From Lysobacter panacisoli (GTDB taxonomy: Bacteria; Pseudomonadota; Gammaproteobacteria; Xanthomonadales; Xanthomonadaceae), in assembly GCF_009765165.1 (NCBI RefSeq), contig NZ_VLNU01000002.1, positions 84,316 to 148,315 on the forward strand: a stretch of DNA of 64,000 nt, read 5' to 3'. Shown in pieces: positions 30,961-61,967 of this stretch. The position numbers were made by a program, and so were the translations under genes. How positions within the stretch are numbered: position 1 is the first letter of the stretch; each line of letters starts with the position of its first letter. A model generated the notes under the pieces. It did not search any database, was not told the origin of the DNA, and saw nothing but the letters and a program-made list of their open reading frames with translations.

Positions 30961-33705
30961 TTACATCGACCGTCCGTGCGATTGGGACTGCCGTTGCTGC
31001 TCCTGCTGCTGCCACTGCGCAACCCGCTGTGCTTCCTGCTGCTCGTAGGCCTCGGCCTTCTGCATCGTCTCAGCCATAGGCGGGGCAGGTGTGCGCAGAT
31101 CGACCAGGCCGTTGTAAATCGGAAACGTGTCCTGCACCAGGACGTGGCTTTCATACACTTGCACCGACTGCACCCGTCCCGGCCGCACACCACCCTCACG
31201 CGCGGCCAGCGTCAGTTCGGCAACCTTCTCGTCGCTCACATTCGCTGGTAACTTGTCGCGCAGTTGCTGAAACAGCGGATGGTGCGGATGCGACGGGTCC
31301 AGGTAGGTCACCCGCCCGGAGCCCAAGCTGTGTTGCATCGACGTGGAGTCCGCCGCTGCATGACGTGCCTCCTGCGCTGGCGACGAAGTGGATAGTTCGG
31401 GTGCTTGCAAGGGGTGTCTTTCAGGTTGCGGCTGCTCCTGTTGTGGTCTTGCCCGCTGCTGCAATCCCTGCTGCATCTCCTGCGCCGTGGTCACGCTGCG
31501 CGTGGTCCACATGCCCCGACCGTTGTTCTTCACCGTCGCGATCGCGCTGTCCGGGCCGTACTGTCCTTGCGCATCGGGTTGCAGGATCAGCATGAAAGGG
31601 GACGTGACGCCTTCACGCGCATGCGACTTTTCGATGGCCGAGACCGTCGCGTTCAGTTGTTCCTGCGTGCGCGAGATGCTGTGTTGCGCATAGTTCTCGG
31701 CCACCAGATCGCGCAGGTAGTGGCCGGTCGAAGGCGTCGGTGGCGCCACCTGCGCGGCAGGCATCTGCGTGCGCATCTGCGCTCCCTTGGCCGTGCTTGC
31801 CTGCTGGTAGGTCGCCTCCAGTTCCACCAGCACGTTGCCTTCGGCGCGGCTGTCGTACAGCACGCCGTCGTGCATCCAATCGCCGTTGTGGTAGCGCACA
31901 TACAGATTGCCATCGGAAGCCATCGATCGCTCCGGGGCCAATCCCTTCATCACAGCCTCGGGCGGGTCGCCGAAGCGTTGCCAGTCGTATTGCAGGTGCG
32001 CGGCCACGTAGCGACTGGCGATCGCGGTCGGACTTTGCGTCGCGTTATGTGCGATCACCACCTGCGCGGCGTGGTCGAGTTCGGCCGCGCGCGACGGGCT
32101 GGCGGTTTCGGTATGGGTGATCTTGTGGCCGCGTTCGATGACGTCGGTCACCACTTCGCGTTGCCATGCGCCGCTGTCGGGATCGCGCGTCCAATCGCGC
32201 GGCAGCAGACTGGGCGTGTCGTGCACGCCGGCCGGGAGTGCATACGGATTCTTCGGCACAGGCGGATGGGCCAGGACCAGTTCCACCGACGTGTTGGTGG
32301 CCTGATAGTTCAACCGGTCGGCCAACGAGCCGGTGGCCACTACGGCGTGGGTCTTGTAGTGGGGCTGGCCGGTCTTCCAGTCCACCGCAGAAAAACGTGT
32401 GTCGATCTCATCGGTCTGGATCGTGCCGGCCCAGCCCTGTTTCGGATCGAAATGCCACACGCGACCGGCGCGGTCGGTTTGTGTGTAGATGCGTTGTTGA
32501 TCGATGGCATCGGCGAGTTTGTCGCCGGCCACGGTGCCGACGATCGCGCCGATGCCGCCGGTGACGAGCAGGCCGGGGCCGCTTTCGACCCCGAGCGCGG
32601 CGCCGGTGCTGGCACCGAGCGCGGCCCCACCGAACGCACCGACGCCGCGGGAACCGAAGTGGACGATTTCCGACTGCGCGCCGGTGGCGTTGCCCTGTTC
32701 GTACAGTCCCGTCGCCGCGTGGGCGGTGATGGCGGCGTCGGCGAGGGTTTCTACCGTGCCTAGTGCGCCGGCGCCCTTGACGATGATCGGCCGGACGCGG
32801 GAGGTGTAGTCGAAGTGGATGGCGCGCTGGGTGTTGTGAACCAAATCTTCCACTACCTTGCGTTCGCCGCGCTCGTTCAGTAGGTGCTGCGCGGTGGGCG
32901 CCGCCACGTGTGGGTTGTGCGCAATGGCCTCCGGCAGATCGCGGTGCCATGTCTGTTGCGCTTGCCAGCCTTGGCGCAGGCTGTATGTGACTTTCGGATC
33001 GTGCAGCCGCGCCTCGCGCGCCTCCTCCAGCGCTGCACCGGGCAGCTTGAAGTCAGTACGGCTGTTGTACAGCTCCACACCTTCGCGGTTGAAGATGCGG
33101 ATGGGCACGTCGGTGTGCGCGTGGATCGTGTCCAGACTGCGCGGCACCTTGTCGTAGATCGCGTCGCGGGCGTCGGCGGGGACGTAGCGACCGTGACCGT
33201 CCTTGTCGAGTTTGCTCGAAAAGCGGTAGTCAACTCCCAACTCGCTTTCGAGCTTGTGCGCCGCGACCGCGCGCACTTCCACGTCGTAACCTTTGGCCTG
33301 CAAATCGCGGATCAAGTCAGCTGTCCACTCGCCATTGCTGAGCGTGGTGTCGAAGATGAAGTTCTTGCGCCCGGTGACAGCGGCTTCGCGCAACTCGTCG
33401 GCCCACGCACTCGCGTCGGGTTGGGTCAGGCCGGACCAGTTGTAGGGGGTGGCGGATTGGAACTCGTTGATGCGAGGGTGGTATTTGCGCAGTTCGTCGG
33501 GGTCGATGGGGACGACGTTGCCATTCAGTTCTTTGATGGCTCTATCCGCTAGTCCACCCTTTCCCGCGCCTGGTTGCCCTCCAAGAACTATAGCCTTGGG
33601 AGCATCTTGCGGCGTTGCGATGTTTAACCTGCTGCCGGGGACGACATCTTCCAGAAATACCTTTCGGTGCTCGCTTGGTGGGAGAACGGTGGATGCATTG
33701 CTCAT
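30961..33705 (-). CDS. Zeta-toxin protein with C-terminal XVIPCD-like type IV secretion signal (putative X-Tfe effector)
   Basis: This 914-residue protein starts at ATG 33705, seven bases after GGAGG. The N-terminal zeta-toxin kinase domain (about 25-250) has Walker A GGQPGAGKG (42-50), IDPDELRKYHP with Asp68/Asp70, and FDTTLSNGEW. Zeta toxins phosphorylate UDP-N-acetylglucosamine and block wall synthesis. The middle carries a glycine-zipper stretch (GAFGGAALGASTGAALG), a WHFDPKQGW region and an uncharacterised domain. The last 114 residues (about 801-914) match the plan of the Xanthomonas VirD4-interacting domain: a DPSHPHHPLF start, a helical mid part, and a Gln-rich tail. Effectors with this tail are delivered into rival bacteria by the X-T4SS, and a virB6-like gene lies at the right edge of this window. 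It overlaps the upstream partner gene by 4 bp (ATGA). Confidence 0.88.
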   Translation of the reverse strand: MSNASTVLPPSEHRKVFLEDVVPGSRLNIATPQDAPKAIVLGGQPGAGKGGLADRAIKELNGNVVPIDPDELRKYHPRINEFQSATPYNWSGLTQPDASAWADELREAAVTGRKNFIFDTTLSNGEWTADLIRDLQAKGYDVEVRAVAAHKLESELGVDYRFSSKLDKDGHGRYVPADARDAIYDKVPRSLDTIHAHTDVPIRIFNREGVELYNSRTDFKLPGAALEEAREARLHDPKVTYSLRQGWQAQQTWHRDLPEAIAHNPHVAAPTAQHLLNERGERKVVEDLVHNTQRAIHFDYTSRVRPIIVKGAGALGTVETLADAAITAHAATGLYEQGNATGAQSEIVHFGSRGVGAFGGAALGASTGAALGVESGPGLLVTGGIGAIVGTVAGDKLADAIDQQRIYTQTDRAGRVWHFDPKQGWAGTIQTDEIDTRFSAVDWKTGQPHYKTHAVVATGSLADRLNYQATNTSVELVLAHPPVPKNPYALPAGVHDTPSLLPRDWTRDPDSGAWQREVVTDVIERGHKITHTETASPSRAAELDHAAQVVIAHNATQSPTAIASRYVAAHLQYDWQRFGDPPEAVMKGLAPERSMASDGNLYVRYHNGDWMHDGVLYDSRAEGNVLVELEATYQQASTAKGAQMRTQMPAAQVAPPTPSTGHYLRDLVAENYAQHSISRTQEQLNATVSAIEKSHAREGVTSPFMLILQPDAQGQYGPDSAIATVKNNGRGMWTTRSVTTAQEMQQGLQQRARPQQEQPQPERHPLQAPELSTSSPAQEARHAAADSTSMQHSLGSGRVTYLDPSHPHHPLFQQLRDKLPANVSDEKVAELTLAAREGGVRPGRVQSVQVYESHVLVQDTFPIYNGLVDLRTPAPPMAETMQKAEAYEQQEAQRVAQWQQQEQQRQSQSHGRSM

Positions 33706-34052
33706 GCGCCACCTCCGAAGATGTCCTTGAGGTAGTGCTGAAAATCGTCCGTATCGCCCAGCCAAGAGCCCTTGGAGCTTGCCTGTCCCATGAGGTGCTT
33801 CTTGGCTTTCGCTTTTTCAACGACTACGGGGTCGCCGCTGGCTTCGGCTGCCTTTAGTTCATCGCGGGCTTCGAAGTAGAAGGTTTCCAATCGACCTTCA
33901 AGCGCCCAGATGGCGCCATCGAATGGCATGAGCCTGAATGGCTTCTTGGCGTAGTCGTTCAGGACTTCCTGCAATCGTTCTATATGCTCCGGATAGTCCT
34001 TGAGCATTTCGCGCAGGCGTGCAGGCACGGGAGGTGGGGGGAGGGTCTTCAT
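33702..34052 (-). CDS. Small cytosolic partner of the zeta/XVIPCD toxin (putative immunity or antitoxin protein)
   Basis: This 116-residue protein is charged and helical (LREMLKDYPEHIERLQEVLNDY near the start) with no signal peptide, ending in DIFGGGA. Its stop overlaps the effector start, so both are made from one message, and it is made first. That order is typical of toxin-immunity pairs. Most immunity proteins of X-T4SS effectors are periplasmic lipoproteins; a cytosolic one fits a kinase toxin that acts in the cytoplasm. I do not recognise the sequence as an epsilon antitoxin. The start MKTLPPPPVP at 34052 follows a weak AGGAAG site. Confidence 0.68.
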   Translation of the reverse strand: MKTLPPPPVPARLREMLKDYPEHIERLQEVLNDYAKKPFRLMPFDGAIWALEGRLETFYFEARDELKAAEASGDPVVVEKAKAKKHLMGQASSKGSWLGDTDDFQHYLKDIFGGGA

Positions 34053-34102
34053 CGCGGTCACTTCTTCCTGATGGCACCGAATGCCGAAGATGCTATCTCG
34101 GC

Positions 34103-34182
34103 GTGAACATGGATCGTGTCCAAGCTGCGCGGCACTTTGTCGTAGATCGCGTCGCGTGTGTTGACGTAGCGGCCGTGGCGTC
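34103..34182 (-). pseudogene. Orphan fragment of a zeta-toxin domain
   Basis: Read on the minus strand, this stretch encodes RDAIYDKVPRSLDTIH preceded by GRYV. It is nearly identical to the corresponding part of the intact toxin (encoded around 33100-33195), and the DNA is also close. The reading frame breaks off on both sides. It is a leftover of a second toxin copy directly upstream of the partner gene. Confidence 0.8.
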
Positions 34183-34258
34183 GCCATCGAAGCAAGCATC
34201 CGCGACTCTCTCGCATTGAAGCCCGAAAACGGCGTGCGCAGACTGGATTGCAAGGAGC

Positions 34259-34486
34259 GTCGAAGCTCCGCACAAAGCGGTAACCCGCCACCGATTCACA
34301 GGCGGGTTTCTTGTGTCCGAACCTTGGGCATGAGTCCGACGCAGCGCGATGTTCCGCGTCGGGAGGGCGGCTAATACAACACCTCGCAAGAGGGAATACG
34401 CCCGCCGGCTTTGTGCGGCTTCGAACCTCCCGACACCTTGCGCCGAATCCCCGGCGCAAGCCCGGCTGGTTTGCTGGAGACACCGC
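34259..34486 (+). ncRNA. Structured leader RNA, copy A, before XAC0095-like gene
   Basis: This 228-bp leader is strongly similar to copy B at 59983-60203. In order it holds: GAAGCTCCGCACAAAGCGG (34262-34280); a hairpin ACCCGCC/GGCGGGT with a T-rich tail (34283-34310); an outer stem GTCGGGAGG/CCTCCCGAC (34358-34366 with 34426-34434) enclosing CCTC-GCAA-GAGG (34382-34393); and CCGGCTTTGTGCGGCTTC (34405-34422), which is nearly complementary to the first element. A last hairpin CTTGCGCC/GGCGCAAG (34437-34460) precedes the start codon. It could be a C4-type antisense/phage-immunity RNA or a cis-regulatory leader. The family is not certain. Confidence 0.6.
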
Positions 34487-59879: not shown

Positions 59880-59982
59880 GTCGGAGTCGATGCACGATCT
59901 TGTGGCGTTTCGCTGCATGTCGTCGCGACAAAAGCTTATTGCTCACGCGCAATCACCATCAGCAAACTCCCTCCCAAGGAGT

Positions 59983-60203
59983 GTAGAAGCTCCGCACAAA
60001 GCGGTAACCCGCCACCGAACACCGGCGGGTTTTTCATGCCCATGCATCGGGCGTGATCCGGCGCGTGCAGTTCCGCGTCGGGAGGGCGGCTAATACAACA
60101 CCTCGCAAGAGGGAATACGCCCACCGGCTTTGTGCGGCTTCTAACCTCCCGACACCTTGCGCTGCGTCCGCAGCGCAAGCGGCCGTCCACTGGGAGATCC
60201 CAC
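59983..60203 (+). ncRNA. Structured leader RNA, copy B, before XAC0095-like gene
   Basis: This leader has the same order of elements as copy A: GAAGCTCCGCACAAAGCGG at 59986-60004; hairpin AACCCGCC/GGCGGGTT plus T-run (60006-60034), a good terminator; outer stem GTCGGGAGG/CCTCCCGAC at 60077-60085 and 60145-60153; CCTC-GCAA-GAGG at 60101-60112; and CCGGCTTTGTGCGGCTTC at 60124-60141. The last hairpin is longer here (CTTGCGCTGC/GCAGCGCAAG, 60156-60179), with both arms changed in a compensating way. If transcription starts upstream of 59986, a short terminated RNA carrying the complementary element would be made. Confidence 0.62.
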
Positions 60204-60589: not shown

Positions 60590-61063
60590 ATGGACGTACG
60601 TTTCCTGACGGCCGTGGTGGCCGTGGCAGTCGCCGCCAGTCTCGTAGGCTGCAAACCCAAGGGCCCGTCGGCGGCTGAAGCCGACAGCCAGCGCATGGCG
60701 CTCGTGCAACGCGCGGAGGCCTTCAAGCGCGACGCCGTGCAGAAGCCCGTGCTCGCACCCGCACGCAAGGCCGAGCTGCAACAACTCGCGGCCGACGTCC
60801 GCGCCTGGCAGGCACGCACCGGCCGCAACGACGTGCGCGTCACGCCGGACACCGTCACCGCGCGCCGCAACGACAACCCCGGCGGCGGTGGCGACTGCGA
60901 CGACTGCCCCGGCTACCGCGTCGACGGCGACCGCATCTGCTTCCTCGAAAGCGAAGGCGAATGCCCCGCCGACGACGGCAGCGACCTGCAACTCGGCCGC
61001 GTCTGCGTCTACACCTGCATCTGGATCGGCGCTGAGGCGGAGCCGGCGCGGAAGGGTTCCTGA
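60590..61063 (+). CDS. Cysteine-rich lipoprotein
   Basis: This 157-residue protein has lipobox LVGC (Cys21), a helical charged region (AEADSQRMALVQRAEAFKRDA) and a C-terminal Cys-rich acidic domain with CDDCPGYRVDGDRICFLESEGECP and CVYTC. A GGAGG site is nine bases before the ATG. It may be an envelope protein; some X-T4SS immunity proteins are small lipoproteins with cysteine pairs, but no toxin is adjacent, so that is speculation. Confidence 0.78.
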   Translation: MDVRFLTAVVAVAVAASLVGCKPKGPSAAEADSQRMALVQRAEAFKRDAVQKPVLAPARKAELQQLAADVRAWQARTGRNDVRVTPDTVTARRNDNPGGGGDCDDCPGYRVDGDRICFLESEGECPADDGSDLQLGRVCVYTCIWIGAEAEPARKGS

Positions 61064-61151
61064 CGCGACAAGCACGCGGCAACCGCAAGGACGATTGGCC
61101 GTCCCTCGGCTACCATCCCGGGGCGGTCTCATCGAACACTTGGGGGAGTGG

Positions 61152-61967
61152 ATGGCTGTCAATCAGGAAGAGCGTGCGTACCGGGCCTGGAAGGTGCTTA
61201 CGGCGGTAGCGGCGAAGAAGGACGGACTGATCACCTACGGGGAGCTGGGCGAAGCGATCAATGTGCATCACCGCGCGCTTCGCTATGTGCTGGGTGTCAT
61301 CCAGGCCTATTGCCTCGACCAGAAGCTTCCGCCACTGACGATCCTCGTCGTGAATGCGCAGGACAGAACCCCCAGCTATGGGTTCATCGCCTGGGATGCG
61401 ACAGACCTGCCCGAAGGATTGCGGAAGGTCCGCAACCACCCGTGGAATGAGAGCGAAAACCCGTTCCTCTACGCATCCAAGGGCGAAACCGAAGAAGAGC
61501 TCGCCGCAGAGCTGGATGCCGATCCCGGGAAAGCCGAAGACATCTACGCGCAGGTCAAGGTGCGGGGCACGGCGCAATCGATCTTCCGGAAAGCGCTGCT
61601 GCTCGCGTACCAGGGGCGATGCGCCATCTGTGGATTGACCTTCGAAGACGCGCTTCAGGCATCCCATCTGATCGAGTGGAACGACTGCAGTCCCGCGCAG
61701 CGAATGGCCACGTGCAACGGTCTCCTGCTTTGCGCAACGCATCATCGGTTGTTCGATTGGGGCTACATCACCATCGCGCCAGATCACACCGTGTTCTATA
61801 TCGATCCGAAGGGCAGGGACGGGAAGTACTCCAATGCGGACACCCAGGTGTCGACGGCCCTTCATGGCAAGAAAGCCTTCATGCCCAAGGACCGGCGCCA
61901 CTGGCCATCAGCGGAATGTCTTGGGTGGCATTACAAGGCGCATGAGTGGAAGTTCGAGGGCCGGTAG
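61152..61967 (+). CDS. HNH endonuclease with N-terminal winged-helix-like domain
   Basis: This 271-residue protein has two parts. The N-terminal region (about 5-85) reads like an MGMT/Ada-type winged helix (LITYGELGEAINVHHRALRYVLGVI). The C-terminal region is an HNH nuclease domain of the HNH_2 type: CAIC (157-160), ASHLIEW with His172, CNGLLLC (188-194) with Asn189, and THHRLFDWG with His197/His198. It is probably a restriction-type or defence endonuclease. The Mrr-like nuclease gene lies 280 bp downstream on the same strand. Confidence 0.88.
   Translation: MAVNQEERAYRAWKVLTAVAAKKDGLITYGELGEAINVHHRALRYVLGVIQAYCLDQKLPPLTILVVNAQDRTPSYGFIAWDATDLPEGLRKVRNHPWNESENPFLYASKGETEEELAAELDADPGKAEDIYAQVKVRGTAQSIFRKALLLAYQGRCAICGLTFEDALQASHLIEWNDCSPAQRMATCNGLLLCATHHRLFDWGYITIAPDHTVFYIDPKGRDGKYSNADTQVSTALHGKKAFMPKDRRHWPSAECLGWHYKAHEWKFEGR

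Follow-up and report, generated by a model that had tools for sequence, protein, structure and literature searches.

Two segments of a 64,000-nucleotide stretch of the Lysobacter panacisoli genome (hereafter the window), one near 60 kb (copy A) and one near 34 kb (copy B), carry the same series of structured elements upstream of a small gene, and this raises the question of what RNA they encode and what it acts upon. The sequence-only reading took them for a duplicated leader with complementary arms, either a phage-immunity-type RNA or a new cis-regulatory leader of the XAC0095 family. We located every element that it described in segments 59983-60203 and 34259-34486, in the order stated (Table 1). 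A terminator-like hairpin follows the first word in both copies, although the T-run of copy B is imperfect. A stem GTCGGGAGG/CCTCCCGAC then spans 60077-60153 in copy A and 34358-34434 in copy B, with a GCAA-capped hairpin inside both, and the last hairpin ahead of the start codon does differ in length, with 10 bp at 60 kb and 8-9 bp at 34 kb. Both downstream ORFs match the XAC0095 model NF047335, as proposed. Promoter-like sites are also found at the corresponding place upstream in many related loci.

Table 1. Elements of the two copies, in window coordinates
Copy	Feature	Position	Strand	Basis
A	Promoter-like site, TTGCTC - 18 - CAAACT, serving the upstream RNA	59939..59968	+	sequence
A	Predicted upstream RNA, ~60 nt, from a1 hairpin to terminator T-run	59975..60034	+	sequence; layout as in relatives
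A	Word a1, loop of hairpin GGAG..CTCC	59984..59990	+	7-nt exact complement of core a' region
A	Word b1	59993..60002	+	10-nt exact complement of b' loop region
A	Terminator-like hairpin and T-run (T-run end 60034)	60006..60034	+	sequence
A	Core, sRNA-Xcc1 RF02221	60077..60161	+	65.4 bits, cut-off 53
A	Stem P1	60077-60085 with 60145-60153	+	
A	b', loop of hairpin P4	60127..60134	+	
A	a' segment, between P4 and stem P1	60138..60144	+	
A	Last hairpin, 10 bp	60156..60179	+	
A	SD-like GGGAG before XAC0095-family gene	60192-60196	+	
A	XAC0095-family gene, 82 aa	60204..60452	+	NF047335 68.9 bits, cut-off 34
B	Promoter-like site, TTGAAG - 17 - CAGACT	34216..34244	+	sequence
B	Predicted upstream RNA; T-run imperfect, 34307-34312	34251..34312	+	sequence
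B	Word a1	34260..34266	+	
B	Word b1	34269..34278	+	
B	Core, sRNA-Xcc1 RF02221	34358..34442	+	69.6 bits, cut-off 53
B	b', loop of P4	34408..34415	+	
B	a' segment	34420..34425	+	
B	Last hairpin, 8 bp (9 in computed fold)	34437..34460	+	
B	XAC0095-family gene, 82 aa	34487..34735	+	NF047335 65.6 bits, cut-off 34

By covariance-model search, the core of both copies is sRNA-Xcc1 (Rfam RF02221), an already catalogued family. The scores of 65.4 and 69.6 bits, together with nine copies in the genome, argue that the duplicated structure is not a product of chance. The proposal of a new leader of the XAC0095 family therefore fails, since RF02221 was known before and also precedes symE and phage antirepressor genes. 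We likewise rejected a riboswitch or any new leader family, as RF02221 is the sole Rfam match in the window; the copy-A leader has, at E <= 5, just two further matches, of 18.6 and 11.8 bits, far below their cut-offs. The antisense strand of both cores encodes the shadow peptide CCISRPPDAE that had been pointed out; it is the conserved RNA read backwards.

The sRNA-Xcc1 core consists of a closing stem (P1) around two inner hairpins and carries the conserved motif AATACAA..GGGGAATA. At least three standard pair types occur at all nine positions of stem P1 among 163 distinct cores, a count that leans to pairing because the positions were picked by complementarity. RNAalifold predicts merely three pairs in an alignment of 75 cores, probably because the cores differ in length.

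The 3.88-Mb genome contains nine RF02221 copies, eight of them above the cut-off, and seven XAC0095 genes, each of whose matches starts 78-92 nt 3' of an RF02221 copy. One copy (L007) sits before a SymE-like gene and another (L002) before a small ORF that is unrelated or decayed. With this genome counted each time, RF02221 occurs in 10 of 12 genomes at the level of the genus, in 43 of 149 at that of the family, in 26 of 369 (12 above the cut-off) at that of the class and in 58 of 398 (40 above the cut-off) at that of the phylum, and it is also present in 11 plasmid and 8 phage records. An exact pattern of the window core recurs in six contigs, from Pseudoxanthomonas, Lysobacter and a Lysobacteraceae bacterium. 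Family scans of 114 of 117 downstream ORFs returned 43 XAC0095, 16 SymE, 6 Bro-N, 3 AntA, 3 KilA-N and 2 Rha proteins. Six of nine plasmid or phage places that we inspected have an antirepressor-type gene annotated at the core (ant, anti-repressor, KilA-N, Ant, Rha and KilA-N); the other three have a small ORF before Bro-N, an unannotated stretch, and a core cut by an IS near symE.

Several of these mobile loci have features of their own. Aggregatibacter phage S1249 (L046) carries tandem RF02221 matches before ant (2501-2587 and 2735-2818, the second below the cut-off), and Escherichia phage PPwrbA_EH2201 (L045) also carries two (1962-2051 and 2501-2586). On an IncL/M plasmid the module and a KilA-N gene lie near a carbapenemase gene (L048, 2501-2583). 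In an X. citri plasmid (L050, 2501-2553) the core match stops near ISXfu2, in a stretch with two IS and two symE copies. The annotated anti-repressor CDS of phage Smp131 spans the core (L043, 2817-3389), and its start is likely over-called. Five sRNA-Xcc1 copies with a spacing of about 380 bp are tabled for Xylella Temecula1 (PMC12189769).

For comparison among loci we collected 133, the best-scoring and not a random sample, which yielded 126 matches in 122 loci (11 had no match) and 119 distinct cores. Loci in which P4 was absent or low-scoring, the flank short or the ORF missing were excluded, leaving 109 for a word test and 113 for a duplex-energy test, the window copies included. The XAC (43) and SYM (16) classes were defined by our own iterated profiles, and their sizes equal the NCBIfam/Pfam counts, an agreement by count alone; the ANT class (14) was chosen by hand from names and sequences, and 36 loci form the OTH class. 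Start codons were assigned by a simple score that sometimes errs, as at L009, where XAC0095 lies in another frame. The word test compares the longest exact complementary words of each locus with those of loci swapped within its class, counts words of at least 6 nt as successes and uses 5000 permutations, so that p=0.0002 is its floor; the search for longest matches inflates the absolute rates, and the swaps correct for that, though not for all relatedness. Viral loci were treated separately: among the matches listed there were at least 80, of which 72 were kept and 60 are distinct. A single exact core pattern is common to all of them, and their proteins were assessed by eye.

Two words, a1 and b1, lie about 65-100 nt 5' of the core, after the promoter-like site and usually ahead of the terminator-like hairpin. 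The first stands in a hairpin loop, and its complement a' lies ahead of the closing stem; the second is complementary to b', which forms the loop of the second inner hairpin. The two are present upstream in order in 85 of 109 loci and in 38 of 43 XAC loci, where a1 lies at about -93 and b1 at about -81 relative to the core. The complementarity of the upstream word to the core, noted from the sequence alone, is borne out across the XAC class (a in 40/43 and b in 39/43 loci, against 26% and 18% for swapped pairs). The other classes agree (SYM 13/16 and 12/16, ANT 12/14 and 13/14, OTH 33/36 and 32/36; p=0.0002 in all four), as do the viral loci among the matches listed, with a1 in 49/60 and b1 in 54/60 against 27% and 19% for swapped pairs.

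Duplex energy, a coarser measure, averages -28.3 within a locus and -22.0 after swapping. The own pair ranks first in only 20 of 113 loci and within the top five in 69, presumably because the GC-rich flanks of the words are shared. Within the L. panacisoli genome all nine cores have their lowest duplex energy with their own upstream RNA, the margin being below 1 kcal/mol in four cases, and when exact words are summed the own partner is best in seven of nine (the exceptions are L003 and L009). Copies A and B have a common b word, and their computed duplexes cross-react. On visual inspection, the 5' arm in the a1 hairpin (GGAG, GGTG, GGGG) tends to track the 3' strand of stem P1 (CCTCC, CACCC, CCC), which suggests that the closing stem may be invaded by the upstream RNA on binding.

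The minimum-energy fold of the whole leader contains a long a1b1:core helix in both window copies. Such a helix is what one would expect if a1/b1 paired with the core inside one read-through transcript, a cis leader in which the fold and not a separate small RNA mattered. We consider this distinctly unlikely, since 92 of 109 loci have a run of at least four T within 60 nt after b1, accompanied in 81 by a hairpin of -6 kcal/mol or better, although copy B falls outside this rule; moreover, IsrK, which occupies the corresponding place in prophage Gifsy-1, is reported to work in trans (PMC4825925).

In phage-type loci the two words occur a third time, downstream of the core at the ribosome-binding site, as a2 and b2. 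Downstream words were found for a2 in 11/14 and b2 in 11/14 ANT loci, 7/16 and 11/16 SYM loci, and 16/36 and 19/36 OTH loci (p=0.0002 for each class), and in the viral loci among the matches listed for a2 in 50/60 and b2 in 48/60, compared with 24% and 10% for swapped pairs. The word b2 stands about 9 nt ahead of the start codon in phage-type loci, and in 42 of 48 viral loci among the matches listed it ends 7-12 nt ahead of it, which is the Shine-Dalgarno position. Within genomes of the same family or order, both downstream words are missing from 4 of 9 SymE loci, and likewise from 9 of 11 other non-XAC loci.

The gap between the core and the start codon varies little, with medians of 53 (XAC), 48 (SYM) and 45 nt (ANT), and a viral median of 48 nt with 53 of 60 loci within 25-70 nt among the matches listed. 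Both this spacing and the recurrence of core words before the neighbor's start, in 48-50 of 60 viral loci among the matches listed, run against the published view of sRNA-Xcc1 as a stand-alone, trans-acting virulence sRNA to which the neighboring gene is incidental. That view has experimental backing, since the RNA was cloned in Xcc (8004) as an 88-nt species and characterized by Northern blot and RACE (PMC2996969), and control by HrpG/HrpX is cited in PMC12444791. As an account of all loci we nevertheless judge it very improbable, and for phage-type loci it is already disfavored.

Comparison of loci shows the common layout, the match of words within each locus, the placement of b2 at the Shine-Dalgarno position and the co-variation of the words. 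From these features we consider each copy likely to be an antisense RNA module of the C4 type, with sRNA-Xcc1 as its scaffold. The promoter would drive an RNA of about 60 nt that carries a1 and b1 and ends at its own terminator, all predicted elements. Read-through would yield a longer RNA in which a leader with the 85-nt core (a' and b') is followed by the last hairpin and the gene. By analogy with C4 in phage P1, the core of phage antirepressor loci and many symE loci most likely blocks translation at the ribosome-binding site, and the upstream RNA most likely titrates the core, as IsrK does in Gifsy-1. The sequence-only reading had assigned the antisense role to the upstream word. The shared plan of P1 and Gifsy-1 indicates that these roles are swapped, with the structured core as the C4-like antisense RNA and the upstream RNA as its a1/b1 partner.

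Complementary words could also arise as functionless remains of an inverted duplication, and arm-to-arm copying can hold inverted repeats alike. Such remains would have to account for three words, a1b1, a'b' and a2b2, that agree in phage-type loci, and for b2 at the Shine-Dalgarno position in 42 of 48 viral loci among the matches listed. We regard this origin as extremely improbable.

The XAC0095 loci do not follow the phage-type scheme in full. Downstream words of this class are not above chance (a in 0/43 loci, p=0.996; b in 7/43 against 10.6% for swapped pairs, p=0.30), and no words above the swaps appear in the leader, the spacer, the first 280 nt or the reverse strand. The mean z of the duplex between core and leader is 0.03 in the XAC class (20 of 43 loci), compared with -2.63 for ANT (14), -1.42 for SYM (16) and -0.89 for OTH (20 of 36). 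We therefore rejected a block of the ribosome-binding site by the words in this class: nothing exceeds the swaps, and the z of 0.03 compares with -2.63 for antirepressors. By these comparisons the XAC0095 class is a distinct variant of the module without target words at the ribosome-binding site, and since its copies lack a2/b2 the core cannot silence the gene through that pairing.

What the core might do at these loci is a matter for cautious suggestion. Our guess, to which we would give somewhat less than an even chance, is that the upstream RNA works as a conventional antisense RNA against the core within the read-through mRNA, setting its processing or stability, and that the output depends on read-through of the terminator.

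The main rival for the XAC0095 copies is a core that acts in trans, as a C4-like RNA against other RNAs such as the antirepressor messages of incoming phages, with the upstream RNA as a sponge and XAC0095 merely carried along. The core scaffold is still conserved at these loci though the target at the ribosome-binding site is absent, sRNA-Xcc1 does accumulate as an 88-nt RNA in Xanthomonas (PMC2996969), and in 25 of 27 pairs of closely related loci the words outpace the remainder of the core, all of which would suit a trans role. However, an exact search of the L. panacisoli genome with the two-word signatures of three word pairs, representing four of the nine copies, returned, besides the loci of origin, one, none and two further sites (1, 0 and 17 with reversed patterns as controls). 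All three further sites overlap open stretches of 165-342 aa, and none resembles a start-codon region. Exact two-word trans targets are thus rejected in this genome for these three word pairs, and on balance we hold a trans-acting core to be unlikely.

Comparison of copies shows that both pairing partners change together. The clearest example is a single locus in two genomes of the genus (L017 and L018) with 98.7% identity over 9.3 kb, identical XAC0095 proteins and 1 of 83 third positions differing. The 185-nt element has 11 differences, of which 10 occupy the 40 word positions and one the other 145 (Fisher p=8e-7, a value that rests on word limits fixed after the alignment was seen). Three adjacent b pairs are altered on both sides, and nothing is altered between the arms. 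The own pairs form computed duplexes of -21.2 kcal/mol, compared with -16.1 and -17.4 for the crossed pairs. Among 27 XAC pairs with at least 60% protein identity, which are not independent, the words diverge more than the remaining core in 25 but exceed third codon positions in 8 only, and one pair (L065/L068) shows no word change despite changes at 21 of 73 third positions. These counts make L017/L018 a striking case and not the rule.

Such matched changes could be read as the mark of a domesticated, self-contained RNA pair at the XAC0095 loci, in which a C4-type antisense RNA and its small-RNA partner have moved off the ribosome-binding site and switch words together, most copies having a code of their own. 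The switching might possibly arise by copying between inverted-repeat arms during replication, and the pairing codes would perhaps serve immunity or guard against cross-talk between paralogs. We find this reading doubtful, having lowered our estimate because the words exceed third positions in only 8 of the 27 pairs and because the own partner is best in seven of nine copies.

The surroundings of the XAC0095 genes offer some further observations. The predicted model of the XAC0095 protein consists of two helices (pLDDT 74). Next to copy B, window positions 30961-33765 (-) encode a 934-aa protein with an N-terminal Zeta_toxin domain (E 2.4e-52), whose C-terminus, by eye, we take to resemble the XVIPCD signal of X-T4SS effectors. 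The small ORF that precedes its gene, at 33702-34253 (-), has no Pfam match and may be the immunity gene of the zeta protein. An antisense ORF at 34058-34200 (-) duplicates part of the zeta-domain protein (RDAIYDKVPRSLDTIH), as if a remnant of another effector gene lay between effector and leader. An HNH_2 endonuclease gene lies 3' of copy A (60888-61967, +; E 3.5e-11). In X. citri, XAC0095 was reported to interact with HrpG and its neighbor XAC0096 with VirD4 (PMC2883993), so that XAC0095 there likewise adjoins a gene whose product interacts with VirD4; its expression was seen in planta only (PMC2653504).

If the C4-type reading holds, a virulence-linked family of trans sRNAs would be recast as the antisense half of a phage-type switch, with an overlooked partner named for sRNA-Xcc1 and, at phage-type loci, a target named as well. 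This would give a direct test for existing annotations, for example those of Xylella vesicles, for which target prediction took free trans action for granted. The XAC0095 variant, which has up to nine RNA pairs in one genome, mostly different words and no target at the ribosome-binding site, raises the question of what job a C4-type RNA has once its classical target is gone, and would offer a natural system for studying the change of specificity in RNA pairs.

In the published record sRNA-Xcc1 appears as virulence-linked, integron-encoded and trans-acting. It has been reported together with symE from an integron cassette in 13 Xanthomonas species (PMC12444791), and in Xylella seven copies are treated as trans sRNAs (PMC12189769). 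A table of the latter paper places sRNA-Xcc1, isrK and C4 matches of one strain side by side, and PMC5331693 may also name sRNA-Xcc1 alongside IsrK or C4 antisense RNA. The partner words, the antirepressor context and the link to XAC0095 go unmentioned in the available portions of this literature, and we found no paper in the open-access literature that joins sRNA-Xcc1 with an antirepressor. C4 and c4-a1b1 themselves stand in the motif table of PMC2864571. The C4-like sRNAs of A. baumannii also occur as many chromosomal copies in one genome, with two small RNAs antisense to them; that group matches C4, and the accessible text does not mention sRNA-Xcc1 (PMC5320573).

The kinship of sRNA-Xcc1 with C4 is one of plan. 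The Rfam C4 model (RF01695), suggested as a check, matches neither the copy-A leader (E <= 5) nor any of 16 related loci (E <= 0.5), which include the seven other copies of this genome, and it has no match across the whole window at the gathering score. The isrK model (RF01394), which does match in Gifsy-1, has no match in the copy-A leader or the 16 related loci, nor in one genome, in a search that had no control match. Common descent with C4 is therefore not supported, and we name the element a C4-type module and not a C4 RNA. The motif given above is also proper to the sRNA-Xcc1 core, unlike C4. The comparison with the C4 RNA of P1-type phages that had been drawn for the window copies is nevertheless apt, since the layout is the same and the distances are similar. 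In phage P1, as in the sRNA-Xcc1 module, the order is a1, b1, an RNA with a closing stem and two inner hairpins, a2, b2 at the ribosome-binding site, and the gene. The P1 annotation places a putative a1 at -88 and a putative b1 at -74 from the 77-nt C4 RNA, a2 from 4 nt after C4, the end of b2 10 nt before icd, and icd at +51; in sRNA-Xcc1 loci the gene starts about 45-53 nt after the core and the words lie at similar distances. In P1 the b' loop covers the ribosome-binding site while a' binds upstream, and in P1 and P7 RNase P cuts C4 at the 5' end of the closing stem (PMC5320573). By eye, the closing stem of the XAC class is often followed by a tRNA-like ACC, which would suit processing by RNase P as in C4. 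The XAC0095 loci differ from the P1/P7 C4 module (RF01695 and RF03163 c4-a1b1) in having no a2/b2.

Gifsy-1 offers a second parallel. Rfam matches and sequence give its isrK locus the order c4-a1b1, isrK, C4 and gene start, and the words complementary to its C4 are TTGGCGT and TCACCG upstream and TTGGCGT and ATCACCG downstream, among a few other matches of 6-8 nt. In Gifsy-1 C4, b' lies in the loop of the second hairpin and a' just ahead of the closing stem, and the sRNA-Xcc1 cores have the same anatomy. A terminator-like hairpin stands between a1/b1 and the core in both. IsrK (RF01394) resembles the upstream RNA described here in being a short a1/b1 RNA that ends at a terminator and is followed by an antisense RNA and then a gene, and in its short form it acts in trans to turn on the read-through mRNA (PMC4825925). 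It differs in sequence, its antisense RNA is C4 and not sRNA-Xcc1, and it regulates orf45/anrP and not XAC0095.
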